Position numbers and translations under genes: made by a program. A DNA stretch of 64,000 nt, from NCBI RefSeq assembly GCF_026151205.1, contig NC_087079.1:16424945-16488944 (forward strand), in the 5' to 3' direction. The notes under the pieces were generated by a model. That model saw only the letters and a program-made list of their open reading frames with translations, had not been told where the DNA came from and ran no database searches. Positions 4,689 to 43,837 of the stretch are shown in pieces. How positions within the stretch are numbered: position 1 is the first letter of the stretch; every line of letters starts with the position of its first letter. Origin of the DNA: Bolinopsis microptera. Lineage: Eukaryota > Ctenophora > Tentaculata > Lobata > Bolinopsidae.

Positions 4689-7600
4689 TCAGGATCTCAT
4701 CATGTCGAGAGATGGCCCGCATTCCTCCTCCTCACCCTCCTCGCTGTCTCCCTCCTTCTCTTTCTCATCTCGCATCTCTACATCCTCAACCGGTTTACTA
4801 TCCACACCTGCATCGTTATCAGGTATCTCCTCCACTGCCTCAGTTTCGTCCTTCTCTCCCGCTTCCTTGTTGGAGTCTACCTCGGTCTCTTGAATTCCAG
4901 CAGTATCTTCAGCTGGTTGATCCTGCTCAGTCTGGGTCGTCTCCATTTCAGCGGACTGCTCAGTTGCTGCTGCTGCCTCATTCGACTGCTCTTCTGTTTC
5001 TTCCTCCTCATCTGGAAATGCATTTGTTTAACCGATACTTGAACATTATTGCCCAAAAGAGACCTAGAGGCTCTACAAATTTCAGGTATCTGTATTAATT
5101 TCGATTTTATGATATTCCAGACTGAAAATTAATATACTATTGATTAGTATAAATTAATTTGTTTAAATAAGTATTGTTTGGTTAGGGGGGGGGGGGGGGT
5201 CCAAGGGGAACTTTGGGGAGTTTTGGGGAACTTTTTTTGGGGAACTTCAGGAAACCTGGGGGACTTTCCCAAAGTTCCCCAAAAAATTATCAATGAAACA
5301 AATAATTTTGGGGAATTTTGGGGAACTTTTTTTTGGGGAACTTCAGAAAGTTCCCCAAAATTCCCCAAAGTTCCCCAAAGTTCCCCAAAAAAATTATCAT
5401 GCCAAGAAAATTATCATGCTGCAAGTATCAACAAGTAAGTTAAGATTATACCTTATAATAACATACATGTTAACATTAATGGGTATTAATGTATATTAGA
5501 GAAATTTTGAATAATTTTGAATAATTTTGAATAATTTTGAATAATTTTGAATAATTTTGAATAATTTTGAATAATTTTGAATAATTTTGAATAATTTTGG
5601 GGAATTTTGGGGAACTTTGGGGAGTTTTGGGGAACTTTTTTTTGGGGAACTTCAGAAATCTTGGGGGACTTTCCCAAAGTTCCCCAAAGTTCCCCTTGGA
5701 CCCCCCCCTGGTTAGTGCTGTGATATAAAACAAAAGTGCTACTTACATTTGACGTGAGGGAAGGGCTGGAACTCCTCCCTTACATCCTGGAAGTTAGAGG
5801 GCAGTATCCGGATTGGATGGACAACATCCTCGTTATCACTATTCTCGCTATCATCCCGGTCTTCTGCTGTACCAACGTCGTCTATTGCCAGGAACTGAGG
5901 AGACAATATTTTTAGGCAACAGTTAAAAGAGGGTTGTTACCTAAAAGAAACAAAAGCAATGAAAACTAAAATCACCAAAAGTGATATTCAGTGTAGCTGA
6001 AGTTAAGGATTGTACTATAAGATAATGGCATTATCGTATACAATATTGCTGTAAAAACGGTGAACAAGAAATAAGCTGCTAGAAGCAGATCCTTACCGGC
6101 TGAGCAAGAGTTTCTTCCAGGTTCTTCTTCTTCTTTTCAGGATCTTCCTCAATCGGTGCATCTATCGTTTTAGCTTCCTTTGGTGTCTAGAGAGATATTC
6201 TTGTGAATTTCATGAGGTCTTAAAATTAAGTTCAAAGTAATAACAAGGCGAAGAATTTCTAATTTCAAAAAATTTGACTATCCCATACAACCCTTGTAAA
6301 AGCTAAAATCTGTGATTTGGAGACAGGATAGCGAGCAGTTTGGTCATTATTCTTAACTTCTTTTTGATTACTTAACTTAATAATCTAATAAACTAATTTC
6401 ATAGCCGATTATTATTCATACCTGGAATCTATGAGCAGCAGATTCAACAGCTTCTTTTTGCTTGTTAAGCTCATTCTGCTCCTTCGTCAACTTTTCAATT
6501 ACTTGGTAGTAGTAATCGTACACAAACTTGCTCATCTCGGGCATATCCTTGATGACCTTAGCAGAAGGTGGCAAGTCTCCAGTCTTCCTAGTAACAAGGT
6601 TAAGATCGTTAAAATTCACACATTTTAAAGAGAATATTATATTTGGGTCACCTAAAAATTAGGCATCGAAAAGTAGCCCTTCGGTTTAAATTAAAAACTA
6701 CATCATAGTTCATTCTATCATTCACAGATATCAATATCCCCTTTCTACAGCAGAAACACGCGGGTCTCCAGGTATACCTGTTGGTGGGGAACCTCTCGTC
6801 AGGATATATGTGGAGCTCTGTGGGATGCTTCAGGAGCTGTTTGAAGGCGGGGGTCAACTCGTAGCAGTTAGCGAATATACCTGGGGGTGTCGTATTGTTA
6901 ACTTACTGACAATATAATATGAGAGAATGTTATCAAAATCGCTGTTTTAAAGGTGTGTTTTTAACACAAATGCCACAAATTTCCAACAGTAAAACAGTAC
7001 TGACCGACTCTAGCGAAGACGTAGAGTCCCAGTCGTGCACGTGACATAGCCACGATTAGCCGTCTGACGTCACGAAGATGACCCACAGTCTTTGTCCTGA
7101 CTAGGGAGAGCAGGATGTAGTTGTTCTGACTTCCCTGAAAAGTTTGGTTTTAGTTTAACTGTTTTAGGAGCCTTCTTTTTCTTCCTCAATTCTTTAATTT
7201 CATACTGGGTCACACAGGGGATTGATAAAATCATCAACAATAACTTCCACTATATATACATAATAAAACCAAAGATGTTTGTAATCAGTAATACGACTCC
7301 TGTATACTACTACTCCTAGTAGCGACCATCAAACCTGATATCTGTCGACAGTAGTGATGGTTTTAGGGAAACCAAAGACAGGGTTATCCCCACACCTCTG
7401 TTTCACAACATCTCTGATAAGGTGTTTCTGTCCGTTGTAGGTTGTCAGTATAGTGATCTCCTCACTCTTGTAGCCTGTGAAAATGGATAGCTGTGTAGTG
7501 GAAAACTGCTCAATGTTATTTATTGTTATGGGACAATTAGTTAAATCTTTAAAATTTAAACTACTATACTAGTACTGAGTGGAGTTGGGTTAGAAACATA

Positions 7601-10600
7601 TAAGAGACACGATGATTTAACTTGTAGAAGCTAAATCAGTATAGTGATCTCCTCACTGTTGTATCCTGTGAAAATGGATGTCGGGATTAGGGATAGTACA
7701 TGAAGTCCAATGTGCAGTACGTGTAGTACACCGGGATGTTGTGTAGGGGGGGGGGGTCCAAGGGGAACTTTGGGGAGTTTTGGGGAACTTTTTTTTGGGG
7801 AACTTCAGGAAACCTGGGGGACTTTCCCAAAGTTCCCCAAAAAATTATCAATGAAACAAATAATTTTGGGGAATTTTGGGGAACTTTTTTTTGGGGAACT
7901 TCAGAAAGTTCCCCAAAATTCCCCAAAGTTCCCCAAAGTTCCCCAAAAAAATTATAATGCCAAACAAATTATCATGCTGCAAGTATCAACAAGTAAGTTA
8001 AGATTATACCTTATAATAACATACATGTTAACATTAATGGGTATTAATGTATATTAGAGAAATTTTGAATAATTTTGAATAATTTTGAATAATTTTGAAT
8101 AATTTTGAATAATTTTAAATAATTTTGGGGAATTTTGGGGAACTTTGGGGAGTTTTGGGGAACTTTTTTTTGGGGAACTTCAGAAATCTTGGGGGACTTT
8201 CCCAAAGTTCCCCAAAGTTCCCCTTGGACCCCCCCCTGTGTAGTGGAAAACTGCTCAATGTTATGAGACAATGAGTTAAATCTTTAAAATTTAAACTACT
8301 ATACTAGTGAAAAATTGTTTAATAAGTTGCCAACCTAAGAGTCGCATGTACATGTAGACAGCAACCACATATTCAGCTTCACCAAGGTTCTGATAGAAGT
8401 AGGGATTTGGTTCTGACTCTCCGACACCGTTGAAATCTTCAACGTTTATAAGCTGAGGTGAGGAGTGAGTTGTTGACCTTTTAAAAAGTTTCACAAGTTG
8501 AATTTACAAATTCTTTAAAATCCACTCTTACTACGCCTAAACTGCTAAAGTGGGCTTTTATGGGTTAACGTTTGAACACGTAATCCAAGAATGACGAAAT
8601 GTAACAAACGTTACACAATCTCCAAATATAAAGATGCACTCAGACTGACCTGATAGTCGAAAGAGAGACCAGGATTGCTGGTAAGGTACTCGGAACTGTT
8701 CAGAACATGTGGCAAGTTGCCAAGTTTCTTGTAGCGCCAGTTGTACAGGTTAGCTAGAGAGGCCCGGGATCTTCCTTGTTTGTCTAGCTCAATTGCTGGT
8801 ACTCCTGGAGAGGGTTGTTTTACTTTAAACACGAGGCTCGGCTTGGTCAATACGACATGAAACAAACAAATAGCAGAGGTAGGCGGAGGTAGGCAGAGGT
8901 AGGCAGAGGTAGGCAGAGCATCCAATGCTATCATTTCGTGGGCCATCTTGGCCCAGCCTCTCTTTAAAAAAACTAAAAAAACAAAAAAACAAATAGCACG
9001 TTTAACTGTTTAACCAAAGAGATGTTGTTTTTAAATAACAAATTAAGCCTACTTACCTACTGTTTACTATGGGATATATTATATTCAATTAAACTCAGTA
9101 TAATACCCTATAGGAGACCTACCTAGTCGAATAAAGCGAGTGAAGAGGCTCTGTATAATACCCTATAGGAGACCTACCTAGTCGAATAAAGCGAGTGAAG
9201 AGGCTCTGTATAATACCCTATAGGAGACCTACCTAGTCGAATAAAGCGAGTGAAGAGGCTCTGTATAATACCCTATAGGAGACCTACCTAGTCGAATAAA
9301 GCGAGTGAAGAGACCTACCTAGTCGAATAAAGCGAGTGAAGAGACCTACCTAGTCGAATAAAGCGAGTGAAGAGGCTCTGTATAATACCCTATAGGAGAC
9401 CTACCTAGTCGAATAAAGCGAGTGAAGAGGCTCTGTATAATACCCTATAGGAGACCTACCTAGTCGAATAAAGCGAGTGAAGAGGCTCTGTTCCATATAA
9501 TACCCTATAGGAGACCTACCTAGTCGAATAAAGCGAGTGAAGAGGCTCTGTATAATACCCTATAGGAGACCTACCTAGTCGAATAAAGCGAGTGAAGAGG
9601 CTCTGTATAATACCCTATAGGAGACCTACCTAGTCGAATAAAGCGAGTGAAGAGGCTCTGTTCCATATAATACCCTATAGGAGACCTACCTAGTCGAATA
9701 AAGCGAGTGAAGAGGCTCTGTATAATACCCTATAGGAGACCTACCTAGTCGAATAAAGCGAGTGAAGAGGCTCTGTTCCATATTAATAATACCCTATAGG
9801 AGACCTACCTAGTCGAATAAAGCGAGTGAAGAGGCTCTGTATAATACTCTATAGGAGACCTACCTAGTCGAATAAAGCGAGTGAAGAGGCTCTGTTCCAT
9901 ATTAATAATACCCTATAGGAGACCTACCTAGTCGAATAAAGCGAGTGAAGAGGCTCTGTATAATACCCTATAGGAGACCTACCTAGTCGAATAAAGCGAG
10001 TGAAGAGGCTCTGTATAATACCCTATTGGAGACCTACCTAGTCGAATAAAGCGAGTGAAGAGGCTCTGTATAATACCCTATAGGAGACCTACCTAGTCGA
10101 ATAAAGCGAGTGAAGAGGCTCTGTTCCATATAATACCCTATAGGAGACCTACCTAGTCGAATAAAGCGAGTGAAGAGGCTCTGTATAATACCCTATTGGA
10201 GACCTACCTAGTCTAATAAAGCGAGTGAAGAGGCTCTGTATAATACCCTATAGGAGACCTACCTAGTCGAATAAAGCGAGTGAAGAGGCTCTGTTCCATA
10301 TAATACCCTATAGGAGACCTACCTAGTCGAATAAAGCGAGTGAAGAGGCTCTGTATAATACCCTATTGGAGACCTACCTAGTCTAATAAAGCGAGTGAAG
10401 AGGCTCTGTATAATACCCTATAGGAGACCTACCTAGTCGAATAAAGCGAGTGAAGAGGCTCTGTACCCTATAGGAGACCTACCTAGTCGAATAAAGCGAG
10501 TGAAGAGGCTCTGTTCCATATTGCTGTACTTCTGGAATGCCATGTTCTTGATAACTGGGGGCAGCTGGTGATGATCCCCGATCAGAATAACTCGTTTCAA

Positions 10601-13600
10601 CCTGGACGAATAAATTAGTATTCAAGGAGCTGTCATGGACGGAATTTTTACTCTGTTCAATGACATGTACAATGTATGTTGGTTATAACAGTATCTGAGA
10701 AAAAAAAGTCAGTTCAATATCTAAAACATGTGCCGCCTCCCCGCCTTAACAAATGTCTGCCAGTCACACTGCCCCCTTACCTGTTGTGCCCATCCTCAGG
10801 CTCTTGTAGTAGGAGGGGGATGAAGGTTTCTATCTCCAGAATCTGGGCTGATTCCTCCATCAGTATGTTGTCGTATCTGCAATTAATGGTTTTAATTAAA
10901 TGTTTATTTTTTAAACCTGATTTGGTAAAAATTAACTGGTACAACTGACCTGCAACTAAATTAGTAACTGTAAATATGTTGATACTTGATGTTCCTAGAA
11001 ATAAGTTTGACCTGAATCCGAGTTTAACCAAGTTCCTCCTGGTAAGAGCCGCGTGAGTACAGGTCATAGCAATTATTTTAGCTTCCTTTACCAGCAGGTA
11101 GTTCGCTCTGTCCAGACCACTTCTCATCAGCTCAAACGCTCTGACGGGGAGATAATTATTTGTTAGTTAATTAGATATAATTATTTATATATACTTTCAA
11201 CACTACTATATAACAAATAATTCGAGCTAGCAGAATGGTTTTCAGAGGGCATTAATGAAATGTACTATGAGCTGGTCCCAAGTCCAGACGCCATTTTATT
11301 TTTTGTAATTTTCAATAACCCTGTCTAGTCATTGACCACTGATTACTCACTCATCCGTGGAAACCTGACATATTTAGAGATTTTGTGACGAGAAAACGTT
11401 AGTTAACAAGATTCTAATATCAATTATAATTGAAGGGGCTTCATAATTGCCAACGATATCGTAAATGTCAAAAAATTTAACTCATTACCCAACATTAAAT
11501 AAGTTTTACCTGAACTCTTCTAGTTGGTCGAATATTTTTTGGATGTGTCTATAACAACCCTCTGCTTGATCCAGATCTTCTACATAGGAATCTCCTAAAA
11601 TTTAAGGAATTTAAGGAATCTTCTATCTAACATTAAACCAAAATAACTTATTTTTCTGATTATTTTGAAAATAAGGAACCTGTTAATCATAAAAATTAAT
11701 AATTTTATCTCACATGATACCTGGTTTATCAAATGAGTTCAAATAAGGATTCTGTAAGCCCTATAATCTATAACATGTGTATAATATGTGCTATAATATG
11801 TGCTATTTTAAGTTTAGTATACGTAGAAAATTTAAAATGGTAAAGTAAAGTGGTTAAGTAAAGTGGTAAAGTAAAGTGGTAAAGTAAAGTAAAGTAAAGT
11901 AAAGTAAAGTAAAGTAAAGTAAAGTAAAGTAAAGTAAAGTAAAGTAAAGTAAAGTAAAGTAAAGTAAAGTAAAGTAAAGTAAAGTAAAGTAAAGTAAAGT
12001 AAAGTAAAGTAAAGTAAAGTAAAGTAAAGTAAAGTAAAGTAAAGTAAAGTAAAGTAAAGTAAAGTAAAGTAAAGTAACACTTTCCATACCTTTAAAGATG
12101 GGCTGAGGAGCGTTGCTAAAGTAAACATGGAAAGGAAACAGCTCTTTAACATCACAAGCCTCGTTTCCCTCCTCACTTCCGCTTTTCTGCTTCAGTCTTG
12201 TCATGAACTCATCCCATCTACTCTTTACCTGTTTTTCACTCAATTATATTATAATCGATATTAATTTTTGCAATTATACGGGTATATGGCCCCCAGAATA
12301 TAGGTGGCCCCCAAAATATAGGTCATGTTAGTGGATACAGTTCTAACCAAGATAAGCGATACTAATGGGATCTGTTACTGCTAGGTTGGAGTAAAACATG
12401 TAACTAATGTTTCTGGATAAAAATTTTGGACCTACATGAGGTATTTTGGTATATTTGGTCATGACAGCGAAAAATTTAAACGATGTTGTCATTTTCTAGA
12501 GGGGTAAATATGGCGAAAAATTGTCATGACAAAAATCTGTCCAACACATGCCATTAAGACTACTGGTATGAGTATAAGTATTATTTTAAGCTATCTTTTC
12601 ATCGAGACATCTGCAAACTGACAATTTGGAAAAAAGTTATGGCCATCACAATTTTACGGGCCCCCAGAATATAGGTCCATACGACCCCCAGAATATAGGT
12701 TGGTCAAAAACCCTGAACATGCCCAAAACCATGCTGTGGGATGCTCTACTTGTAGCTACTAGTCTCCTGAACCCACATATCAAGTTTTATCAAAATTGGA
12801 TAAAAATTGGCCGAGTTATGGGATAAAAACAAAAACCATATGCCCATATTTGGGCATACGCACCTAATTTGATCGATTTTGGTCCATAAATTGGTCAAAT
12901 ATCAATATTTTTGAATGAAACCAACTTTATATGGAAGGTAAGCATATATTACACATTCTCTATGATTATCAGCTCAATATCTACCTAACTGTGGATTCTG
13001 TGTTCAAATAATCGCAAAAAATGAACAAAATCGCCCATATCTCAAACTGACTTAGCTCAAAACAATAGAACTCAATAGGTTTTCAATATTTTCACATGAA
13101 ATTTTCAGAATCAACGTAGAATTGTCTCATGACCCTAAGTTTTGGGACAGAATTTTGAGTTAGGCCTTTAAAAAAATTTGGCGGCCAAAAATGTCTGATT
13201 TACAGTCATTGAGGTGCACATTGTATTGATACAGATAAAAACAGCCCCCTCAATCATATCTAGGGACACTCCTTCAATCTTATTTAAGTATTTAGTTAAG
13301 ATCCCTACTAAATGAGTGCATGAATGCTTTTTAACTAGTAAAATTAAAGATTTTACTCATTACGGGTATATGGCCCCCAGAATATAGGTTTTAAAAAAAA
13401 AATAGCGACCAAGATTCTGCATTTTCTCTGTCACCCTGAGCATTAAGGAATGTGGGGTAGTGATGAGAAACAGTTAAAGAACATATGCTGAAGAGATGGC
13501 ATCATCAAAATGTATGAAGGTGGAGTATTTGAGGACGATTTTTGCATACCTATATTCTGGGGGCCGTAGTTTTTGATTTTTTGCTATTAAGTATACTCTA

Positions 13601-16600
13601 AACCATTTCAATTTAGTATCTGGAGCCATTGGCATCATCAATACAGTCTCAGCAACATATTCTGACTGCATATAACTGTCTGTGACAATTTTAGAACAAC
13701 TTAGGAACAGATGTTTGGACCTATATTCTGGGGGCCCTGTTAAAAAATGGTATTTTTACAGGTGAAAAAAAAGTACACTTAAAAACCTAATAATTATTTT
13801 CAACTACCCAAGAAACATTTAAAGGGTTATTATGTACATATTTACAGCCCTAAACATGCTTAGAAGTAGTTTTAACACCTGTTTCTAAGTGCTCAAAAAA
13901 CGACCTATATTCTGGGGGCCATATACCCGTATCCAAAAGTTAACGTTCGGATATATTTGACTGTACCAACTTGATTTTGAACGGTGAAAATTCCTGAAAA
14001 TTAAATTCTCTATAAAAAAGGTTGTATTATATTATACCATTGTCGTGTATACAATTGGTTTAATACAACCTGTGAAAGCAAACGACACCACGTGATTAAC
14101 AAGGAGAATTACCTGATAAAGGTTAAAGTAGCCGGCCGTTTCACAAGTGTACGTCACGTCACCTTGTACCCCCAAACTCTTCTGGAGTCTTCCCACCTCG
14201 TTTAGAAGCTCCAACCTGGCACGTGTCAGACAAATTACAAACTAGCCGTTTTAAATTTACAAGTCATTTGGTTAAAAATTTTGATTACATGTAATAAATT
14301 AACTGACTTATTTGTGTGTTGCCCTTCGTGCCCGAGTGTTCTTGAATAAGCCTATAGTGTATAGTATACACTGTATACACTGTATACACTGTATACGGTC
14401 TATGTTATCATCTGGTTTTATATTACATTATCACCCCTTAATCTAACCAAATAATCCACTAACCTATGTGCTAGGATGTAGTTAACTCTGCCATACTTGC
14501 TGAAATCCTTGTCCGTCCCCAGACCTTCTTCTCCGTGACCCAACCTGGAATAATGTGATCAATAAATTATCACTTTGGTAAATAAATATTAAAAATATCA
14601 TCCAATATCTGACTACAACCAGACTTTCAGTTGCAATCGTTTAAAATAAAAATGCACTGTAGTCTCACGAAATCCACAAACATGAGTACAATGATTTCAT
14701 TGGCACGTTACTCACTGTGTTTAAATTGAAACATGCCCACGATTAAAACATACCGAAGAAGATGACGCTCGTCAATGTCCAAGTTGATGATTTTCTGGAA
14801 GAGCTGGTTAAGAGCCTGGTTACTGTGTGTTACTATCAGGGTCCGCTGGTTCGGGAAATTGTGGTAAATGTTGTTGATCACCTGCACTGCTACGTCCGTT
14901 TTTCCTGTACCTGAAAGAGGAATGGCCTTCAGAAAGACCAGATTTGTGCAAAGCGATTTACAAGAAATATTCAACAACGTTTGGCACAAATAAGTAAGAT
15001 TCTGAGACGATTCCTATAAAAAAATCATCAGACTACTCACCAGGAGGGCCAACAACCATTGTTAAACCAGGATTACAACCGGCCTTGATGGCCTCTATTT
15101 GTGTAGGAGTGAATCTGACGCTGTTCTCTTTGGGTTTGTTGTAAGGGTAAGGGCCGGGGTTGGGTAGGGTGTATGGGATCACCTCCAGGCCTGCTCCTTT
15201 TTCTGGGTATTGAGAAGTTTGTGAGTATATGATAGTTTATTGGAACAGTAAGTTGTTTGTATTGAGGTAGGATTCCAAGACTTGGAATTTCAAGACGGAA
15301 AAAATTTGAAACCGTGTGAATAAAAATACTTTAGAACGTAATTACAATCGGAAGATTAGCTAGTTCAACAAGCTGAAAGATAAAAACCAGGAAAGTGGAT
15401 TTTGAATGGTTTGATCTGTTCCTCGGGAGCTGCTTCACACTTAATCTCCATTCCTAAGAAGTTCTCCAGTAGGTGCTCCGCGTCCAAGAATGTATCATTG
15501 AAATCTATCGTCCTTAAAAGAATAGTAAGTTAATTGTTGTTAAACATTCATATCTGCAGTATGAATATGTTATACAGAATGTTTATAAACGAATGTCGTG
15601 ATTTCAAATGATCATGATTTGTAATGTTTAAAGAAACATTTATAATGTGATTAATTTCAATATTCAGTTTCATACTCAGTTTTATTAGGCATCTTAGAGT
15701 AGTGAGCTTCCCCCGGATCCCCATATCCCAGGAAGATGTCATGAAGCCAGGCAGGAACCACACATTCCGTATTTATCATGTCCCGGATAGTCTCCAACAC
15801 TGCCTTGAAGTTGTTCTCCTTGGGCTTTCGTCTCATTATCAAGTTGAAGGTTTCGTATACATCTTCTGATCCTTTTATCGTCTTTTCCATGTCAAACTGG
15901 AAACAGAGATCGATTAAATTACAGGCAGAGTAACAGATTTTTCGCATAATTTCTCTTGTAGAGAATTTGATGGTCAACGCAAATTGAAATCAGATAAACA
16001 CACTTGAAAGACATACCTGGTATTGGTTGACATCCAGATACAGTCTGACAGTCCTCATCCGCGTCTTGTAGTCAGGTTTCTCAAATCCCTCAGCTACCAC
16101 TCTCCCCTCCTCGTCCAGATACCCCTCCACCTCGCACCCTCTCAGATAGCGTAGCCTTACCTGTGGTGCTGTGTTATATTTGGTGGCATGGAAATATCAT
16201 ATTTCCCCCGAAAATCCTCTGTTTTCGTACGTTGCAAGGGTTTTGGGTTAGTATTTAAGAGTAACTGTTATTCAGAAGCTTCTAGAATATCAAATAAAAA
16301 TGTACCTGTTCTAGGAAGGGTTTTCTGGAGCTGTAAGTAGGTGAAGTAGACAAAGCATCGATAGTCAGAAGGAAACAAACGTCATGTTTTCTCAGCGAGT
16401 CCCATTCGGTGGCAATGTTCCGTCTGAAAATGTTCGTGTAAGAATTATAGAAGTCATTTAAAACACTGTCCCTGGCGTGTAAAACTGCACATTTGATTCG
16501 TAGGCTGGTATTTCGACTGTCATATCAAAGCTTCTCGCAGAACGTTCAATCTACTTGCCCACTAAAATCTATAAATACCCGGGGAAATTTGTACGTGAAT

Positions 16601-19600
16601 TTAGATCGCGCAAAAATTTGGACCACATAATCATGATTTTGTCGCCGCGCCGTACAAAACAGACGCCGAAAATTGCCACATTTGTCCCACTTACTACTAC
16701 GTGATGTCGTTGCTGTATATCATTTGGCTCAGAGTTAAAGAGAATCTCTAATCTTGGCAATAAAATAAGAAACACTAAAAACCTTAGATAATATACCTGA
16801 TATCAAGGTTGATTGTGGCATCAGCTCTGACTCGTGAAGGATGGTTCTTTCCCACGTGTGGTTTGGCGACCTAGCACAGTATTCTGTGAGTCTGCAACCC
16901 CCCGCGGAGGGGGTGCGTTTCAATGTGTTCAACAGAGTTCTTAAATTAATAAATAATAACACTGACTTTATTTAAAATAATCACATTCAACTTAAGAAAA
17001 TGCTGCGATCCTTCCAATATTGGTACAATGAGATTGGTTTGATTATCATACCTCTACGACAGTAAACTTTGCGACAGGCAGCGCCATTCGAGCCCATCCA
17101 GAGAATTGGGTCGACTGATCGGATGTTAGAAACGGGCACAATCTCAAAACTGCATCTTCTACGTCCTGAATAGAGACGAATTTTATAAATCCGCTCCTGT
17201 TAACTTTTATTTAATTCTTGCAAAGCAGAATTCGAGCAGTTAAACAACATACTTCTCAACTTCTGTTATTTGTTGGAAGTGATTATAAAAATTGGTTACA
17301 TTTTATTCCTACTTTACCTGTCTTATTTCGTACATAGTTTCCAATCTGAACAAGTTGAAGTTTCTCAGCAAATAATCGTGGAGCGTTAAAAACTGAAGGT
17401 TCAGTTTAGGTAGAGCCAAGCAGCCCTCACCGGAGAAAAACTCGTTTGGGACAACATTCTCGTCCCATAAAATCTGCAAATATTGGTTTGTTAAAATTAT
17501 AAAATGTTAAAACTATTTTAAACTTCACAGCTGTTGCATTCTTTAGAAAATGCTGAACTTGTTAAACCAAAATTCAGCAGGGGCGATTTCTTGCGAACTT
17601 TAGCTGTCGAACTAGAGTACGTGTCGAACTAAAGTACGTGAATATATTATTTATTCACAATGTATATTGTATACTACTTTTCTTGGGGATTATTTACTAT
17701 GAGAATTAAAATGTCCATTGAAGTCAGTATAATTAGAATTTAATCACCACCACTAAAACCAAGTGGTGGACTAATTAAAAACAGTGCGCTAACCTCCTCA
17801 GTAGGATAGAGGGGCATAGCATTAATCTCATCCATCTGGCTCATCCTAATTAACTAATTAATTAATTAACTTATTAAAAACGGTGCGCTAACCTCCTCAG
17901 TAGGATAGAGGGGCATAGCGTTAATCTCATCCATCTGGCTCATCCTAGTCTCATGGTAGGAAACAATCACCTCTAGGATAAAACTACTTTTGTGTTTTGC
18001 TTCCCCATACTGCGGTTAAGAGAAAATTCATTAATATTATATATTTGTTAACTTTATCAACAATATATGATATACATAATTTTGAGCATTATGTTGATCT
18101 CAACTGTTCTTAAAACCGTGCAGGGCAATGAAATAGCCACGTGCTCAGATTTAATCATGAAACACAGTCCAAAGCGTAGTGAGTGTAACCAATAAAGCGT
18201 AGTGAGTGTAACCAATAAAGCGTAGTGAGTGTAACCAATAAAGCGTAGTGAGTGTAAGCAATAAAGCGTAGTGAGTGTAACCAATAAAGCGTAGTGAGTG
18301 TAACCAATAAAGCGTAGTGAGTGTAACCAATAAAGCGTAGTGAGTGTAACCAATAAAGCGTAGTGAGTGTAACCAATAAAATGTCCTAACTACTCACAGG
18401 TTCTAAGAGGTTGAGATGGTGAGCTAGCTCGTGAAGTCTTCTGTTGTTCAGTGACCTGAGGTACCCAGTGAGACTGTCTCTAGAATCTACCTGACTGATG
18501 TTTGCTAACGCTAACTCCTCCAGCTCCTGCAAGTTAGTTATTTGGATGATTGCCAAAGTTTTTATTTGTTAACGTTTTTAAAATCAATATGTTTAAAACT
18601 GGTATTTGTGGCAATTTGTGGCAATATGGATTTAACTAATGGTGACGGCCACGGTAACAGCGTGAAATAGTTGTTTATTTTGTAGATTCTTTTAGCTGAA
18701 ATGTTTTGATTCGGAATATTTCACTTCTGCAGGGAACATTCATTAAACACCAAATAAAACAACAATTTCAATGAAGTTTCTACAAAATTAAACTTTCTTT
18801 CGTCTATCTTCTGCTTTTCACGATCACATCCCCTTCCTTTGCTTCCCCACGTTATTCTGGAACATATCCAAGAAATTACCAGCAGGAAGGTAATGACAGC
18901 AATAGTAGACATGGTTGGTCACACCTTTAGCCTTGCTGAATTCCTGAGACTTTGCATACCCGCACCCAACATGGGTCACTCCTTTCCACACCATGCGGGT
19001 AAACTTGGCCGTTGCCGTCTGATACACATGCTCCTTGTAGTTGTACAACTTCTCCTCCTTGTACCATTGTCGTGCCGCGTACAGTGCGATGCGCGAATAT
19101 TGTCGAATGTTGGCACCGTGGAAGGTATTTTTACCCGCGTTAGGCAAGATCTGGTTCTCTATCCACTCCAATCCGGCTAGTTTTCTGCATTGTTGTGTAG
19201 CTGAGTTTTCGAGATCTACGTCCCAGTTCAGTTTTCTTGCCCGGTGATTTTTGCGAAGATGGTTATGAAAATTCAATGACGTGCGCTTTGTGGCTGAGGG
19301 GTTTATTCTGCAAGAATGGCAGGACCAACGGCATGTCTTACTGATAGCCTTCTCAGCACACATTGTATTCAGATCATCTATATCATCTCCAAGCGACTCT
19401 ACTAGCTCATCACATGGTTTATCACCAATTTTGAACCTCGTTTGATCAATACAATATGCACTAAGTACTGTTGGAACGAACAGCAAACAAGTTACGAGAA
19501 ACAGCAGCATTTTTTGTGGTTGAAATATGAGTAAAGTAGGAATGGTTGGTACGAGATGTTTTTGACTTTGTTTTGTTTTAAAGTGCTGTTTGTTTTTGAA

Positions 19601-22154
19601 ATATGAACATTTGTTTAGACCACAGAAAATCACAAATTTCTCTGTAAACTTTACTGCAGAAAAGTGTCACGATATACCACATCCACCATCTTTTCAGTGT
19701 TCGCAATATAATTTCTTTATTGATTTCCAAAATTAACCCAGAATCTCCACTAAAGAACAAATGGAACAACAGTCATGTGGCTAGTTTTTACACAGTTACA
19801 AGAGCTAACCTTAAAGTGAGCGAAGCACTGTTTCTGTAAAGAGAGAACTTGATCGTAATGCTGGCTTAACATCTGAGTCTCTGTAAGCGGGTTCCCTTCT
19901 AGATCGTCTATTTCGAACCTTGAATTTTGGTAGATTACTTTAATGAACCTTGATTTACCGCAGCGATTTCCTACCCTCCAAGTGGGGATTACAAAAATTA
20001 GTTGAACATCGCACAGTAATCAATTCTATCAATGAAGACAAATATCTACATTACCAAACATGGATCTGCCATCACATTTGCATTGTAAAGATGCTCAAAT
20101 ACCGTTTTAACAAACGTACTTGGAGTAAAATTTGACCATCTTGAGAAGCTCACAAAACAGGTGCCCTTCCTGTTCTCGGTGCGCCAGAGTGCTTTGTGCA
20201 GAGCGCACTATGATGTGCGTGTCAAGGAGGAGAGTGTTGAAGAAGCGCCGTGTAGGCAGTTGCGCTTGGAGGTCTATACACAGCTCCAGAAATCTCTCCG
20301 CGAAATTTACCTGACATAATGATGAGGGTGACATTTTTTTAGATAATATGAGTTTGGAGATAATTTGATATTATCAAAACTGCACTGGTTTCGATTAGGC
20401 ATTATATATTATATAACCATGATAGGAATGACAGAAATCGCACTTGAATTTTAACACTTGATCTCACAAACCTCTTCCATCGTGATGAAGCCTTCAGCGG
20501 GGATCTCCTCGAGAACAGCAAAGTACTTGTGTATGAGTTTTTGAAGGAAATTGTAATCATTTTCGCGTAGTCCACGCTCGCGCGCACCCAGCTTCTGTTC
20601 CCTCTTTTGGAGGTTATTCCACCGTTTGTTTAGACGCGGATTCTTTTCTGAACAAAGGAATGTTTTGTAGTGAGCTGACTCGCTTCAGTTTTGTCGCTAA
20701 AGGATGCTCAAATTCTGTCAATATAGAAAAATGTCTTATCCGAGACTACTAAATTGCTATAACTGAAGCCAGCTTACCGAGTAGACTTTGAAGTTTGGAG
20801 GGGAGAATGCATCTCCAAATACCAAGACTAACTGTATGCTGAATATGTGTGCGTACAATGTCTTCTTCCTGGAAATAAAACATGTCAAATTGATTGCAAC
20901 TAGCATACATTTTATGATGATTATCAAAATATGCACATTCTATACAAACGTTGTTGAAATGGCATCCATCAACACGTCGTTGACATGGTATCTATCATTC
21001 GCATTTAACAACATGATTTATTTAAGCTACTTTAATCTCAAATTACACTCACCAAGCTGTTGTAACAGTGGATCAGGAATATCAGCAGTACAGTCTGCTC
21101 CTTGAGACTGAACTGATCGTTAAATTCCTTTATCGCCTCTTTTACAGCATGGAAAAACAGCGGTACCTAATTGGATATATTGAATATTAATTCAAGGTTG
21201 TTATAACGGTCAATTGACAAATATAAACAATTTATGATTTATAACATAAATATTTCTGTTAAAACCGTATTAATTTTATACAACCTATTCTGATTAACAG
21301 CAACATTCAACAACAGTTCAAGGATACAAATAAATAAAGTTAAATTATTTGGTAAATATAATATGGTAAAGATTGTACCTGGACTGGGTGATCACGAAAT
21401 ACTTTCCACACAGGGACCTTCTGCCTGAACTTCTCGTTGATTATCATCACTATACTCATGATGTATGCGGGTGATAGACGGCCAGGGTTGAAGTTAGGCC
21501 ACAGGTACAGTTCTAGGTACTGACTGAACTCTAACAACATGATTCGTCGGATGGGAAACCTGAGGTAAAAAAAATAAATGTTTGTAAAATAACAAAACAA
21601 TGCTTGTACAATAATTATACTGGGAATTTTCAATTGATAACTTATTTGTGATTTTTCTTATCCTGATAAATTCCCCAGATGTGTGCTCATCTTGAAGAAT
21701 AAGGATTCAAAAGTCAAGTCTGATTACTAGTTTTGGCACAAACCTGTGTCCAATTTCTTTGTAATAGATCCTTTCGATAATTTTTTCTGAAAATTTATTT
21801 TTAGGAAGTTTTGAATGTGGTGCCCAGTATTGATTAGCAAGGGTTGTTAGAACATCTCCATGGATTTCTTGAATAGTGGGAATAACTCCAACTCTTCGCT
21901 TCCCCTGGAAATAATTTTCATCAATATATCGTAATTTGAATAATTACTAACTGTAGCTGTTAGATCAATAATTTCTGATATTATCAACTTATTTCAAAAT
22001 GAATGAGAAAAGACAATTTTTTGAGAAAAGAAAATGAATTAATAATATAACACAAAATCATGGATGTGAACCTAACCTTGGAAACATCAGGCTGATTTTG
22101 TCCGTCTTTATTTGGGAAGTGCTTTGCACCGCCTGTGTGTACATTACTGTCCAT
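4689..22154 (-). CDS. AQR: Aquarius intron-binding spliceosomal RNA helicase (35 exons)
   Basis: Superfamily 1 RNA helicase of the intron-binding complex of the spliceosome, acting in the nucleus. Exons in coding order: 22154-22077, 21904-21744, 21559-21379, 21166-21053, 20868-20778, 20647-20472, 20310-20120, 19918-19810, 18526-18398, 18009-17893, 17473-17318, 17165-17052, 16870-16797, 16423-16306, 16160-16017, 15896-15676, 15512-15388, 15202-15041, 14910-14754, 14544-14464, 14215-14113, 12228-12090, 11594-11510, 11140-11012, 10876-10781, 10601-10483, 8804-8650, 8452-8335, 7474-7335, 7134-7005, 6880-6778, 6587-6422, 6186-6097, 5894-5747, 5011-4689. All joins are GT-AG and keep frame (4743 nt). 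Seen: N-terminal block with [23 protein letters not shown]; Walker [14 protein letters not shown] across exons 18/19; motif II region [42 protein letters not shown]; acidic tail with many E/D. About 95 residues longer than the human protein, as I recall its length, mostly in the tail. The start at 22154 is the likeliest ATG; an upstream in-frame ATG at 22244 gives unlike sequence. Identity is near certain; single exon edges could be off by a codon. Confidence 0.96.
5186..5708. mobile_element. G-run MITE, copy 1 (AQR last intron)
   Basis: Terminal inverted repeats begin with a G run followed by GTCCAAGGGGAACTTTGGGG and end with the complement. Flanked by a 7-bp target duplication TGGTTAG (5179-5185 and 5709-5715). 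The inside holds GGGGAACTTT-type blocks in both orientations and an (AATTTTGAAT)n-like run at 5507-5600. The second copy is at 7747-8236. No coding capacity. The G/C runs at the tips leave the true end and the superfamily uncertain. Confidence 0.85.
7446..7584. repeat. Source copy of exon-29 acceptor duplication
   Basis: Covers the first 29 nt of AQR exon 7474-7335, its 3' splice site and about 110 nt of upstream intron. A diverged copy lies at about 7635-7680 plus 8238-8309, split by 65 nt of other sequence and the MITE. Confidence 0.8.
7635..8309. repeat. Decoy copy of exon-29 acceptor, split by MITE
   Basis: Second copy of 7446-7584. It keeps the acceptor (TTTCACAG) and a readable exon start on the minus strand (GATACAACAGTGAGGAG) but runs into a stop soon after. 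It lies upstream of the real exon in transcript order, so it is a ready decoy 3' splice site. Confidence 0.75.
7747..8236. mobile_element. G-run MITE, copy 2 (AQR intron 28)
   Basis: Same element as at 5186-5708, same orientation and nearly the same sequence, but with a shorter internal AATTTTGAAT run. Flanked by TGTGTAG on both sides (7740-7746 and 8237-8243). It sits inside the second copy of a local duplication of the exon-29 acceptor region, so that duplication is older than the insertion. Confidence 0.85.
8877..8917. repeat. Short decamer array AGGTAGGCAG
   Basis: About four copies of a 10-bp unit in AQR intron 26, near the acceptor of exon 8804-8650. Confidence 0.8.
9099..10515 (-). 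repeat. 26-copy minisatellite made from an AQR exon end plus its splice donor
   Basis: Unit about 55 bp, some 60 bp (extra TTCCA or ATTAA), two collapsed. On the minus strand each unit reads CAG, then 28 nt of coding sequence ending TTTATTCGACTAG, then GTAGGTCTCCTATAGGG and TATTATA. The copy at 10483-10515 is the true end of AQR exon 10601-10483; the other 25 copies fill most of the following intron. Every unit therefore carries an intact 5' splice site (CTAG|GTAGGT) and an AG directly before the coding piece. Counted by eye: 26 occurrences of GACCTACCTAGTC. Confidence 0.95.
11221..11345. repeat. Dispersed repeat, copy in AQR intron 23
   Basis: About 115 nt (GGTCCCAAGTCCAGACGCCA within) that recurs inverted at 52490-52602. 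It directly follows a copy of the 37-nt Penelope-like terminal motif (11192-11220). Confidence 0.8.
11840..12076 (-). repeat. (ACTTT)n pentamer array beside an AQR splice donor
   Basis: About 40 nearly pure copies of AAAGT (ACTTT on the transcribed sense), perfect from about 11880 to 12076. It begins some 14 nt downstream of the donor of AQR exon 12228-12090, so it fills the start of intron 22. Confidence 0.95.
12277..13931. mobile_element. Non-autonomous DNA transposon with TA ends and repeated tips
   Basis: Left tip TACGGGTATATGGCCCCCAG at 12277; right tip is its complement ending at 13931. TA stands at both outer ends, as expected for a TA target. The core of the tip (GCCCCCAGAATATAGG) recurs at about 12660, 12685, 13370, and inverted at 13545 and 13720, so this may be a nest of several copies; 13363-13931 alone has both tips. 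No transposase frame. Lies in the large AQR intron 21. Confidence 0.75.
17771..17848 (-). repeat. Decoy duplicate of AQR exon 10 end with splice donor
   Basis: Copy of 17870-17947 (offset 99 nt) lying downstream of the real exon 18009-17893. It holds the last 55 nt of the exon (coding for [17 protein letters not shown]) with one silent-type change, the donor GAG|GTTAGC and about 20 nt of intron. TTAG before it could act as an acceptor. Confidence 0.9.
18171..18379 (-). repeat. 23-bp minisatellite in AQR intron 9
   Basis: Nine copies of AAAGCGTAGTGAGTGTAACC plus AAT, one with GCAAT. Ends about 18 nt from the donor of exon 18526-18398. Confidence 0.95.
18824..19510 (-). CDS. Secreted ShKT-CAP (SCP/TAPS) protein nested in AQR intron 8
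   Basis: Single-exon gene of 228 residues inside the AQR intron between exons 19918-19810 and 18526-18398, on the same strand. The ATG at 19510 is chosen because it starts a signal peptide ([18 protein letters not shown]); the frame opens earlier, to 19633, without a signal. Residues about 20-70 hold six cysteines ending CRWSCHSC, spaced like an ShKT module. Then comes a CAP domain: [41 protein letters not shown] and the closing [12 protein letters not shown]. The usual His of the HYTQVVW signature is replaced (AKFTRMVW), so the classical cation-binding site may be lost. Such proteins are extracellular, in venom, mucus or developmental secretions; the exact role here is unknown. ShKT ahead of CAP is the reverse of the common nematode order. 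No expression evidence is visible. Confidence 0.85.
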   Translation of the reverse strand: MLLFLVTCLLFVPTVLSAYCIDQTRFKIGDKPCDELVESLGDDIDDLNTMCAEKAISKTCRWSCHSCRINPSATKRTSLNFHNHLRKNHRARKLNWDVDLENSATQQCRKLAGLEWIENQILPNAGKNTFHGANIRQYSRIALYAARQWYKEEKLYNYKEHVYQTATAKFTRMVWKGVTHVGCGYAKSQEFSKAKGVTNHVYYCCHYLPAGNFLDMFQNNVGKQRKGM

Positions 22155-30269: not shown

Positions 30270-31170
30270 CCCGTCTGAGCTACAGCTGTCGTCAGATTAT
30301 CACCCGCAGTGACCTATCTGGACGAATCCATAAAATAATTAAAATACAGTCAACAACCCCGTTTGAGTTATAGCTGTCTTCAGATTATCACCCGCAGTGA
30401 CCTATCTGGACGGATCCATTAAATAATTAAAATACAGTCAACAACCCCGTTTGAGTTATAGCTGTCTTCAGATTATCACCCGCAGTGACCTATCTGGACG
30501 GATCCATTAAATAATTAAAATACAGTCAACAACCCCGTTTGAGTTATAGCTGTCTTCAGATTATCACCCGCAGTGACCTATCTGGACGGATCCATTAAAT
30601 AATTAAAATACAGTCAACAACCCCGTTTGAGTTATAGCTGTCTTCAGATTATCACCCGCAGTGACCTATCTGGACGAATCCATTATATAATTAAAATACA
30701 GTCAACAACCCCGTTTGGGTTATAGCTGTCTTCAGATTATCACCCGCAGTGACCTATCTGGACGAATCCATCAAATAATTAAATACGCTCAACAACCCTG
30801 TTGGAGCTACAGCTGTCTTCAGATTATCACCCGCAGTGACCTATCTGGACGAATCTATCAAACAATAAACTTGTACCCACAAATACGCTCAACAACCCTG
30901 TTGGAGCTACAGCTGTCTTCAGATTATCACCCGCAGTGACCTATCTGGACAAATCTACCAAACAATAAACTTGTACCCACAAATACGCTCAACAAAACCC
31001 CGTTGGAGCTGCAGCTGTCTTTAGATTATCACCCGCAGTGACCTATCAAGACGAAACTGTCAAACATTTTGATAATACACATAAATCATAAATACGCTCA
31101 ACAACCCCGTTGGAGCATCAGATGTCTTCAGATTATCACCTTGAGTGACCTATCGAGACGAAACTGTTCG
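30270..31170 (-). repeat. 88-bp tandem array inside the copia element
   Basis: About ten units spaced 88 nt (core CAGATTATCACCCGCAGTGA at 30293, 30381, 30469, 30557 and on), the later ones longer and more diverged. It lies between the purine tract/3' LTR and the rest of the element. No coding sense. Confidence 0.93.
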
Positions 31171-38880: not shown

Positions 38881-41800
38881 TTATCTGCTGAACTTACCAG
38901 CTTCTTTGCACTCAGTCAGAAAACTGGTGACCTCATCAAGCAGATTTTTGTCTAGGATGTCTACTTGGTAGTCCTTAATCGGCGGCATTACACATTTGGG
39001 GAGGGCTACTGTTGACCTCATCTCTTGTTTGACTGCTGATGGAGGGCCCATTTGAGGGCTTCTGGATTTTTGGAAGGAGTAAATCTCTTCACTAAGTTGC
39101 GACAGTCTTGACTCAAGTGAAGATATCTCCACGGTGGGTATGTTAATCTTATATACCATTTGCAGGATGGCAGAAAACTCCAGGAGGCTTTGTCTGACTT
39201 GATTTGTATTCCTTGTTTGAAGTTCATGTTTCTATCATCCACTAGTGTTACTGTCTCACTTTATTGAATTAAAAGTGATAGCAGGAAATGTCGGAAAATC
39301 AAGTGAACAGTAGTGGACCACCTATCCCTAAGTTAGGAGATTCTTATCTTTTGTTCAAGAAAGAAGTGAAATTGTGGTCAGGCAACCACATAGATCGAAG
39401 AAAGGCTCAAGCAAGGATGTATTTGTTTTTATGTTACCACCTCAGAAGGCTAAGTCCTGAGGCAGTGGAAGTTCCACTTGAAGTATTACAAAATGGCAGA
39501 ACAGACACAGTAGAAGGTGCTGAAGTAAAGACATCGGGATTAGACTGCCTCCTGGAGGTCCTTGATGGAATTTATCTTGAAGATTTGGCTAAGGAAAAGT
39601 TCAAGACTTATGACATGTTCAGAAAGTTAAGTCGGGAAGGAAGCCAAGATGTCAAGGAGTTTATTTCGTCATTCGAAAAAGTTGTAAAACGAATGGAAGA
39701 GCATGATATTAAGCTTCCACAACCTGTTCTAGCGTATGAATTACTTAGAAGTAGTAATGTTAGTGATTACAAGTATTCTGTTGCCATTACTATGTGTGGC
39801 GACTTAACATACACTAACATGAAAGAAACGATAAAGAAGATCACAACTATGAAAGATCCAGAAAGTTCACACCAGAGAATGATTGGTGTAGTTAAAGAAG
39901 ACTCTACATTTTATACTGGTAACTCCTGTATTGAAAATCAGTTTAATATGTATGATGAATCGAAAATGAAAATGAAGTACTGAATGCTCAGGAAATGGAG
40001 CAGCATGCATATTACAGCCAAGGAAGAAGTGGCTTGATTCGGGAAGGATGGGATAACCGGGGGATAGGCTTTAGTAAGAGGAAATGGTGAGAAGGAGGAG
40101 CCAGAGGATACCGATCAACAGAATCAACAGCAGGAAAGTCAACATCAGGTAGCTGCGGGTGTCCAGAAGTGACAGAAAAATGAACCCAACAGACAAATAT
40201 GGGGCGGCATTTTACCTTGTATGTTTTTGCAAGTTCGATTTACCACTTTGCTAGAGATTGTCCAGAACGCCGCAGGAATAGAACAAAAGTGGAAATCAGG
40301 GTAACGAGTGAGGAATGTAAATCTCTTTATGAATGCTCCTGCCCAAAGAAGAGAACTCAAATGTTATGGACCAATTTACCAGTGACAACTTGGGTTAGCA
40401 TGTTCTTGACAGTGGATGCAACAAAACGGTTTTGTGGAAAGGAATGGTTGAAAGTCTATCTTCAGTCGCTGTCTCCAGAAGATCTCATTAAGGTGGCTAT
40501 GAAGAGAAAACATGTATCGTTTAAATTTGGAGATAATGCACCATCAAAGTCAAGGACATGCTGCACATTCCCAGCCGTTGTATGTGACAAACAGGTGAAC
40601 ATTGTGGCACAAGTTGTTGATGATCAGATTCCATTACTGATTAGCAAACAGTCATGAAAGATGCTAGAATGGTATTGGACTTTGGAGATGACACAGTGAA
40701 GGCTTTTGGTGTAAAGCAGAAAATCATCTTCAATGAATCAGGACACTGTAGCATCCCTCTGAGCAAGAATACTATCCATCAACAAGTCTGCTTATGTAAA
40801 TCAGAGAGGAAATTGTAAACCTGACCATGGAAAGTACTGACAAAGAAAGATAGCGATTAAGCTACATAAGCAATTCGCCCATCCCCCACCTGAAAAGTTA
40901 AAGTCACTCTTAAGAACAGCAGGACAGCTTACCAAGGAAATTGCTCGAGAGATTGACACAGTATCGTCTAACTGTGATGTGTGCAAGAGATACAAGCGAC
41001 CGAATAATCGTCCAGTAGTCTGTATGCCTTTAGCCAAAGACTTCAATGATACCGTTGCCATGGATATTAAGGTGTACGACAAGAATAAAAACATTTACAT
41101 CCAGCACATGATTGACCATAAAACCAGATTCTCTGCTGCAAAAGTTATCAGGTCAAAAGACAAGGAAACCATTGTGGAAAGTGTCTTTACACACTGGATC
41201 AACACTTTTGGACCACCGAAGAAGTTCATGAGTGACAATGGAGGGGAATATGTTAACAAAAGTTTTGTTGACCTCTGTGAGAAATTCAACGTTCATATCA
41301 TCACTACTGGAGCTGAAGCACCTTGGAGCAATGCCCTTGTAGAACGGCACCATGCCCTTTTGTCTAACAGTATGATAAAGATCATGGAAGATACTAAATG
41401 CTCAGTTGAAGTTGCTTTAGCATGGGCCTGTCATGCCAAGAACACTTTGGCAAATGTAAATGGTTTCTCGCCATATCAGTTAATCTTTGGCAAAAATCCA
41501 TCTCTCACTTCTATTGATGATCCCTATGCTAGTCCAACGATTGTTGAAGATGAGAGTCCAAGTGAAACTGTTGCCAAGAACATCTCTGCCATCTACAGTG
41601 CTCGAAAAAGAATGATGGAAAGCGAAGCTAGTGAGATGATCAGACGAGCCATTAGATCAAAAACTAGAGAAGTGTACACTGATGAGATACAGTCGGGTGA
41701 TATGGTGTACTACAAAAGAAATGATGATAAGCGATGGCGAGGACCAGGAACAGTTATAGGTGTGGACAAGAAAGTTGTAGTTGTAAGACATGGTGGGTAT

Positions 41801-43837
41801 ATTGTTCGATGCCATCGGATTCATGTTGTCAATGTAAATGAACTGTACTCAAAAGATGTTTCCGAAGTAAGTGGGACCGATCCACCAGATGAGCCTAATC
41901 CCACTGTTGAAGAATTTTACAATGCAACTCAAATGCTGAAAAATGATGTTCTGTTGAACGCTTTCGATAATGCTCCTGCTGAAGAGGATGATAATAATAC
42001 TGTAAGCACAGATAATATACCACAAAGCAACGAAACTAATGTAGAGGAATCAATGTCTACAAAGGAGCAGAAGTTCTGCAAAGCTAAGTCAAAGTATGAG
42101 AAGAAGAAGGTCAGTATCGAAGTGTTAAACACTGACCCCTATAAGTCACAGAAGACTGACGAAATCGAAAAATGGAAGCAAAACAATGTGTATGAAGAGG
42201 TTGAGGCTCACGAAGTAGATGATCAGTTTGTCCCCATTTCGACAAGGTGGGTCACAAATGACAATGGTCATAAGAAAAAGGCCCGTTTGGTAGCTCGAGG
42301 TTTTGAGGAAATTCCTCTTGATAGTACCGAAAGAGTCAGTCCTACTTGTCGAAAAGAATCTCTAAGACTTCTATTCACAGTAGCAGCATCAATGAAGTGG
42401 CCTATTCATTCTCTTGATATAACCTCAGCATTTCTACAAGGTAAACCAATTGAGCGACTAGTTTATCTTACCCCTCCAAAGGAATGCTATAAACCAGGAA
42501 TACTGTGGAAGCTGAACAAATGTGTTTATGGACTGTCAGATGCTGCAAAGATGTGGTACAGAAATGTAAAAGACCACAGTGAACAAGCTGGTTTAAAGAA
42601 ATGTTTATATGATGATGCTCTGTTCTTTTCAAGAGTTGACAAAGAAGATCTTGCAGGAATAATGACTGTACATGTAGATGACTTCATCTATGCAGGGACC
42701 AAAGGTTTTGAGTCTAATATTCACAAAGATGTGCTGCATGGATTTGAGATTAAGTCACAGGAAGCATCGCGATTCACATATCTTGGACTTGAGGTGGAAC
42801 AAGATCCAATCTCATATGAAATCACTGTTGGACAGTCAGATTATATCAGTGCTTTAAAGACCATAGGACTATCAAGTAACAGAAGAAGCCAGAAAACACA
42901 TGCTCTGACTCACGAAGAGTATGTACAGTACAGATCAGGTGTTGGACAACTTATCTGGTTATCTGTCCAAACCAGACCAGATATTTCGTTTGATGCTTGT
43001 CAGTTGAGCAATAATCTGAAAGATCCCAACGTCTCAGACATAATGCTTCACAACAAGATAGTCAAAAAGCTTAAAACTGATGAAGATGCCCCACTGACCT
43101 TCAGAGAACTGCCTAACATAAAGAATGGAGTAAGACTACTTACATACAGTGATGCATCGTTTGGAAATCTTAGTAACAATGGTAGTCAGTGTGGGTATCT
43201 GATACTTATTTCGGATAAAGATGGTAGAGTCAAAAACCCTGTCTGTTGGAAATCTGTAAAGTTGGACAGAGTCTGTTACAGTACTTTAGCCGCTGAAAGC
43301 CTTGCACTCCTGAAAGCGGCTGATCACACCATTTTTATTCAGCAAACACTACAACAAATACTGGGAGATTCTTTAAATGTGACCATAGACTGTTTTATTG
43401 ACAATAAAGGACTTCTAGAGCTTGTACAGAAGACAAAGGACCCCATTGAAAAAAGACTGATAGTTACCATGGCATCACTAAGGGAAATGGTTGAGAAGGG
43501 TGAAATAACTGTTAACTTTATGCCCTCAAGGACGATGCCTGCTGATGTTTTGACTAAGAGAGGGCCTAGTTCTCAAAGTCTGCGTATGTGTTTTGAGAGG
43601 GACTAGTATTTTTAAAGAGTGAACATCGAATTTATTTTTTATTTATGGATTTATCGTTTATATTTTTAGCTTTTTCATACATTTTAATGTCATTTTTGTT
43701 TTGAGTCAGAATCTTTATTTTTTACTTTTGCAGATTAGTTTTTAAAATCAGTGCGTGTGAGTTTCATGGGATTTTTAAAGTGCAAACTAAGTTATTTGAC
43801 TAGTTTTGCTATGATTATTAAAATGTTTACCTAAAAT

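Follow-up and report, generated by a model that had tools for sequence, protein, structure and literature searches.

A minisatellite carrying the end of AQR exon 26 and its 5' splice site in both AQR genes of the ctenophore Bolinopsis microptera

We found that intron 26 of AQR in Bolinopsis microptera begins with a minisatellite built from the gene's own exon-intron border, in which the genuine donor is followed by 25 further donors sharing its sequence from -3 to +6. AQR (Aquarius) is an intron-binding helicase of the spliceosome. An inverted second AQR gene on the same contig carries a similar array. Our tentative preference is that this minisatellite is tolerated as splice-transparent, the first donor usually being joined to exon 27 and a dual use of the unit boundaries repairing mistakes. 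The window is the whole stretch of DNA that was analyzed, 64,000 nucleotides of contig NC_087079.1 (positions 16,424,945 to 16,488,944; C8 in coordinates outside the window). Positions are those of the window unless preceded by C8, a slash marks a splice border, and the AQR gene in the window is called copy A. The main features are the following.

6494 to 21907, minus strand: modelled exons of AQR copy A, about residues 6 to 1374 in human numbering (modelled ends only)
18824 to 19510, minus strand: nested intronless open frame of 228 aa within AQR intron 7, also present in copy B
10483 to 10601, minus strand: exon 26 (119 nt); the exon part of the array derives from its final 41 nt
10477 to 10486, minus strand: boundary 1, CTAG/GTAGGT, the genuine exon 26 donor and the only one with which the frame stays open
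8805 to 10482, minus strand: intron 26 (1678 nt, phase 1), ending CTCTCCAG/GAG
9094 to 10514, minus strand: minisatellite with 26 boundaries CTAG/GTAGGT, in units of 31, 50, 55, 60, and 64 nt
9288 to 9349, minus strand: two 31-nt units reduced to the common core (-22 to +9), with TTCAC, a pyrimidine-rich stretch, and TAG/GTAGGTCTC
9051 to 9059, minus strand: extra donor-like TAG/GTAAGT (intron start 9056) just past the array, present in copy A and absent from copy B
8650 to 8804, minus strand: exon 27 (GVPAIELD...), whose acceptor has a weight-matrix score of 13.04, the second highest of 29
C8:16375323-16409009, plus strand: AQR copy B as modelled, left of the window and tail to tail with copy A

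The model of copy A comes from a splice-aware alignment with the human AQR sequence as the query. It has 32 exons within the window and no internal stop, and the modelled exons of both AQR copies read free of stops, with an aligner that penalizes them; exons 16 to 18 are uncertain, as the models differ between the two copies. The translation of the exon preceding the array matches human AQR in the PDB (47 residues, E value 2e-20). Among the 120 matches listed of 1408, identity stands at 60 to 63% over most of the protein, and P0001 reaches 68% identity, but with only 68% query coverage. In a tree of 15 AQR proteins, the window protein falls outside the sampled bilaterians and two corals, on a long branch and with no strong support.

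The string CTAGGTAGGT occurs 26 times on the minus strand in copy A, from 10486 to 9117, with intron starts from 10482 to 9122, and Tandem Repeats Finder reports 25.1 copies of 55 nt at 9094-10514 with a score of 2304, far above chance. The original prediction of a 26-copy array at the end of AQR exon 26 is thus borne out, by the exact boundaries and by the PDB match that identifies the gene. The unit that it described (28 nt of exon, the donor, and 27 nt of intron) is right as to the boundary but too long for the two 31-nt units, in which six exon bases and the greater part of the intron-like sequence are missing. The 25 intervals between boundaries measure 55 nt in 16 cases, 60 nt in four, 64 nt and 31 nt in two each, and 50 nt in one, and adjacent donors are accordingly 31 to 64 nt apart and not 27 nt, as had been stated. 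Beyond the array, intron 26 continues for about 290 nt. On the plus strand between exons 26 and 27, antisense to AQR, AATAAA occurs 26 times, about once per unit (9094-10514). Tandem arrays abound in this region, with large minisatellites also at 30270-31162, 56431-57715, and 62591-63683; we considered the one at 30270-31162 as a second exon-derived array and discarded it, finding no clear exon by eye. At 39282-43606, open frames resemble, by eye, Copia-type retrotransposon gag and pol.

The repeat unit also matches the same contig at two places outside the window, which lie in opposite orientation and 34 to 39 kb from the array of the window. The two places form one array in the inverted AQR copy B, with 24 CTAGGTAGGT boundaries and one altered boundary, CTAG/GTAAGG. 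An insertion of about 3.6 kb (C8:16395526-16399119) with inverted ends (TAAGGCCCC...) splits this array after its third boundary and creates, at its edge, the donor-like CTAG/GTAAGG. Two linkers beside the insertion contain remnants of the core, and a boundary may have been lost there.

The two convergent AQR genes belong to an inverted segmental duplication that pairs positions 1647-23184 of the window with C8:16373956-16413799. The larger homologous blocks are 84 to 98% alike, and insertions private to one copy are found, including inverted arrays of a repeat of about 185 bp in intron 12 of copy B. Past the first modelled exon, collinear homology fades after about 1.3 kb in copy A and after 1.4 kb in copy B, on whose side three short homologous pieces reach out to 6.4 kb; further out, the flanks (about 50 kb on the left and 41 kb on the right) share only matches of at most 125 nt. 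The 174 kb studied contain no N, and from their sequence the two AQR copies look like a segmental duplication and not like an unmerged haplotype. A genome search with 297 residues of AQR found no third AQR: of 22 candidates 17 matched, 14 of these in copies A and B, and the remaining three lie on contig C11, show 30 to 32% identity, and are presumably other helicases. As the sole other copy found also has the array, the objection that another AQR copy might be the expressed one, which accompanied the original prediction, is weakened. The genome search for the repeat unit scored three candidate regions, and the unit is likely absent elsewhere. On contig C2, at locus L039 (2454-4593), a 13-nt minisatellite unit is repeated about 165 times within a stretch with many CTAGGTAGGT matches.

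Comparison of the two arrays gives an outline of their history. Two units of 75 nt in copy B consist of 34 nt of intron (TATACTGAG..., as found downstream of the array) and 41 nt of exon 26 up to its end, and the founding unit, to judge from this composition, was probably such a 75-nt unit of 41 exon and 34 intron nucleotides. The other unit lengths differ from the 75-nt type in the linker. A 55-nt type, a 31-nt type, and the variant TTAGACTAG are common to both copies; types of 50, 60, and 64 nt are private to A and types of 43, 58, and 75 nt to B. The array therefore predates the split of the copies, in view of the shared variants, and turned over separately later. We propose that the array was founded by a 75-bp tandem duplication spanning the end of AQR exon 26, that linkers changed length and many units accumulated before the inverted duplication of AQR, and that turnover in each copy would have been independent from then on.

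We then considered what the additional donors would do to the transcript. Boundary 1 is a fairly good donor, ranking 17th strongest of 29 donors by weight matrix, when left out of the training, and fourth strongest of 29 by duplex energy with the 5' end of U1. Joining any of the decoys of copy A to exon 27 is predicted to give a premature TAG at the exon edge of the second boundary (25/25), and this agrees with the original prediction that every decoy would break the frame at the exon edge of the next unit. In copy B, 24 of 24 decoys likewise lead to a premature stop, one of which falls within exon 27. Classical experiments with duplicated donors often favored the donor nearest the 3' site, which in this array would be the worst choice. 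It had also been predicted that a 28-nt micro-exon would shift the frame; we confirmed this, and one to six micro-exons all lead to stops. The micro-exon route was rejected, as the unit-internal CAG/AGCC that would serve as its acceptor has a score of only 0.52, which every one of the 29 real acceptors of copy A exceeds. Masking of the decoys by RNA structure was rejected as well, the results being inconsistent across copies and settings: in two of the three settings for copy A, predicted folding leaves almost every decoy less open than donor 1, but for copy B one of three settings makes donor 1 more open than the majority of decoys and another makes it less open than the majority.

Each boundary is AG/GT, and the preceding sequence, TTCACTCGCTTTATTCGACTAG, contains a yTnAy motif (TTCAC) with its A at -19, a pyrimidine-rich stretch, and TAG. 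The pyrimidine fraction at the unit end is 0.71, equal to or higher than that of 26 of the 29 real acceptors of copy A, 22 of which have yTnAy at -15 to -45. Elsewhere in the window, both the pyrimidine and the branch tests are passed by 98 of 3893 plus-strand AGs and by 126 of 3702 minus-strand AGs outside the array, as well as by 4 of the 29 real acceptors in a hand count. The weight matrix gives the unit-end acceptor a score of 1.15, above only one of the 29, although the matrix was trained on the very acceptors that it ranks and flatters them. From its sequence, the fit of the boundary as a candidate 3' splice site is thus mixed, with a good pyrimidine content and branch motif and a poor matrix score.

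The AGGT core is present at every boundary, each of the 26 of copy A and the 24 of copy B reading CTAGGTAGGT, an invariance that follows from the search, since the boundaries were located by that exact string. By eye, no second, damaged boundary occurs in 25 of 25 intervals of A and 22 of 23 of B, the 23rd holding the insertion and CTAG/GTAAGG. The core from -22 to +9 has a constant length at 50 of 50 boundaries, and its two types of substitution, T to C at -17 (seven B boundaries) and C to A at -7 (two A and six B boundaries), both fall in what would be the pyrimidine tract, a point against the splice-transparent reading. By simple arithmetic, if a core of 31 nt lay at a random place within 75 nt, it would cover -19 to +6 with a chance of about 9%. 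These observations are only suggestive of selection on the core, as the restriction of length changes to the linkers is confounded by descent and by the post hoc choice of the core.

Since the boundary combines AG/GT with a branch-point-like, pyrimidine-rich sequence upstream, the use of a decoy is reversible in principle. This feature, the second AQR gene with its array, and the 75-nt unit had all escaped the original prediction. In silico, all boundary-to-boundary splices (325/325 in A and 276/276 in B) take out whole units and rebuild CTAGGTAGGT. When a decoy has been joined to exon 27, a further splice that pairs donor 1 with the AG at the unit end restores the exact mRNA for 25 of 25 decoy products in A and 23 of 23 in B, the altered CTAG/GTAAGG site being excluded from the B count. 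The restoring intron measures at least 100 nt in 24 (A) and 21 (B) of these cases; resplicing may fail for the shortest decoy introns, which measure 50 nt in A and, in B, 58 and 89 nt.

In the mechanism that we propose, every unit boundary could act as donor or as acceptor. Joining one boundary to a later one would remove whole units and rebuild the same boundary, whereas joining a decoy to exon 27 would leave a complete intron that starts at donor 1 and ends with the AG of the unit, and excision of this intron would yield exactly the correct mRNA. The main route is probably the direct splicing of donor 1 to exon 27, with dual use as a safety net. That cells use the sites in this way, and that the array is tolerated through such use, is what we infer from these sequence properties.

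Both AQR genes appear to be maintained. In 29 exons of equal length, covering 3748 of about 4074 modelled nt (exons 16 to 18 of A and 16 to 17 of B excluded), the two copies have 63 differences, of which 63 are synonymous and 0 nonsynonymous (dS 0.082). The 228-aa frame nested in intron 7 has 28 codon differences between A and B, 13 of them nonsynonymous, and because of this the lack of nonsynonymous differences in the compared AQR exons reflects constraint and not simple homogenization. The nested protein has a single database match (79% identity) with a CAP domain (PF00188); its start is hydrophobic by eye and the protein is apparently secreted. The introns have 179 differences in 4918 aligned bases (3.6%) in a comparison that covered 19 of 27 introns and omitted the eight that were unequal in length or longer than 1500 nt. 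Silent sites thus diverge more between the AQR copies (dS 0.082) than aligned intron bases (0.036). On this sequence comparison both AQR copies look selected and functional, and at least one of the genes, probably both, must yield functional AQR in spite of the array. The donor of modelled exon 21 (after C8:16393897) is GC in copy B and GT in copy A, and copy B could be impaired, given this GC donor.

Nearly as likely as the splice-transparent reading is plain first-donor choice, the neutral option of the original prediction, in which the array is a neutral intronic minisatellite, exon definition through the acceptor of exon 26 or early co-transcriptional commitment picks donor 1, and the unit-end AGs are never used. 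The ordinary size of exon 26 (119 nt) suits this explanation, as does the low matrix score of the unit-end acceptor; AQR also has other intronic minisatellites, such as one at 18171-18380 that starts some 17 nt downstream of the donor of exon 8 and has nine 23-nt units in copy A and none in copy B, and the donor-like TAG/GTAAGT at 9056 has to be ignored in any case. It must, however, account for a donor 1 that prevails over 25 competitors of the same -3 to +6 sequence with no consistent masking by predicted RNA structure. The array could instead be a regulatory ladder of poison donors, akin to the buffer or autoregulatory switch of the original prediction, whose use would lower AQR in a feedback by unproductive splicing whenever donor choice or AQR itself shifted. 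The premature stops predicted for 25/25 (A) and 24/24 (B) decoy products and the upkeep of arrays of similar size in both copies would suit this, but stops of this kind are expected of any decoy donor, the unit content and frame details differ between the copies, and the authors who described the dual-site array of UBC found no feedback for it (PMC10809524). We regard such a ladder as unlikely. We are similarly doubtful of the strongest form of dual use, in which some 25 recursive (dual-specific) sites work in both AQR genes and the balance between resolving and decoy splicing sets the AQR level.

Two further explanations carry very little weight. About 25 U1-binding sites might form a platform that blocks premature polyadenylation or boosts recognition of exon 26, in keeping with the fourth-ranked U1 duplex energy of the donor, but AATAAA is absent from the sense strand between exons 26 and 27 of copy A, leaving nothing obvious to protect, and we consider such a role highly improbable. 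Least probable of all is that the array length or the second AQR arose from misassembly or unmerged haplotypes. Alleles of some very polymorphic species diverge to an extent comparable with the 84 to 98% likeness of the larger blocks; against an artefact stand the gap-free sequence, the opposite orientation, the private insertions, the different unit contents of the arrays, and the fading of homology near the gene starts with outer flanks that share only short matches. Finally, the residence of the array in AQR, a helicase that contacts introns, is probably a coincidence.

The array can be compared with several known systems. The recursive splice sites of long introns are 3' sites fused to 5' sites that are rebuilt after splicing. 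The boundary in AQR similarly juxtaposes a candidate 3' site, poor by weight matrix, and a 5' site but, unlike recursive sites, which are isolated in very long introns, the candidate sites in AQR form a tandem series of 25 that takes up 1.4 kb of a 1.7-kb intron. An AGGU signal is given for recursive splice sites in PMC13105047. Ordinary intronic minisatellites, some of them linked to splicing, are exemplified by CeRep25B of Caenorhabditis elegans (PMC4039745); the AQR array is likewise a tandem intronic array, but it contains the end of the gene's own exon and the donor. Tandem duplication of AGGT is also a route of intron gain, as in the Rogers model and ATP2A1, and fission yeast SPOG_01682 has a 24-bp repeat with an intron across four copies (PMC4974935). 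The likeness is that tandem duplication supplies GT and AG and leaves the spliced mRNA unchanged. In intron gain a duplicated exonic AGGT segment becomes a new intron, whereas the AQR unit is part exon and part intron, enlarges, by duplicates of the intron's own border, an existing intron that has a strong acceptor of its own at 8805, and requires no new intron for a correct mRNA.

The closest parallel is human UBC (and also VCX3A), in which a tandem array of dual-specific splice sites is seen in RNA to be used in both ways, and repeat expansions that carry such sites are argued to be less deleterious, being spliceable (PMC10809524). The arrays of UBC and AQR share AGGT at each unit boundary and the removability of whole units, for AQR in silico. 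Unlike the coding, in-frame units of 228 nt described for UBC, the AQR units are mostly 55 nt and out of frame, and the AQR array straddles an existing exon-intron border and must be removed entirely. Among the matches listed from open-licence papers, we found no intronic array made of an exon end and its own donor. The AQR array fits the UBC kind, and its new traits are its straddling of a border, its being out of frame, its 24 to 26 boundaries, and its presence in both genes of a spliceosomal helicase.

The array constitutes a natural experiment, in which the spliceosome chooses among some 25 identical 5' splice sites and every wrong pick is predicted to truncate a splicing helicase, and which is present twice in this genome with different unit contents. 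If the unit ends are indeed used as acceptors, the idea of dual-specific sites, so far applied to coding repeats in frame, would extend to arrays that sit at exon-intron borders, and would suggest the rule that minisatellites carrying AG/GT together with a branch point and a pyrimidine tract can grow harmlessly.
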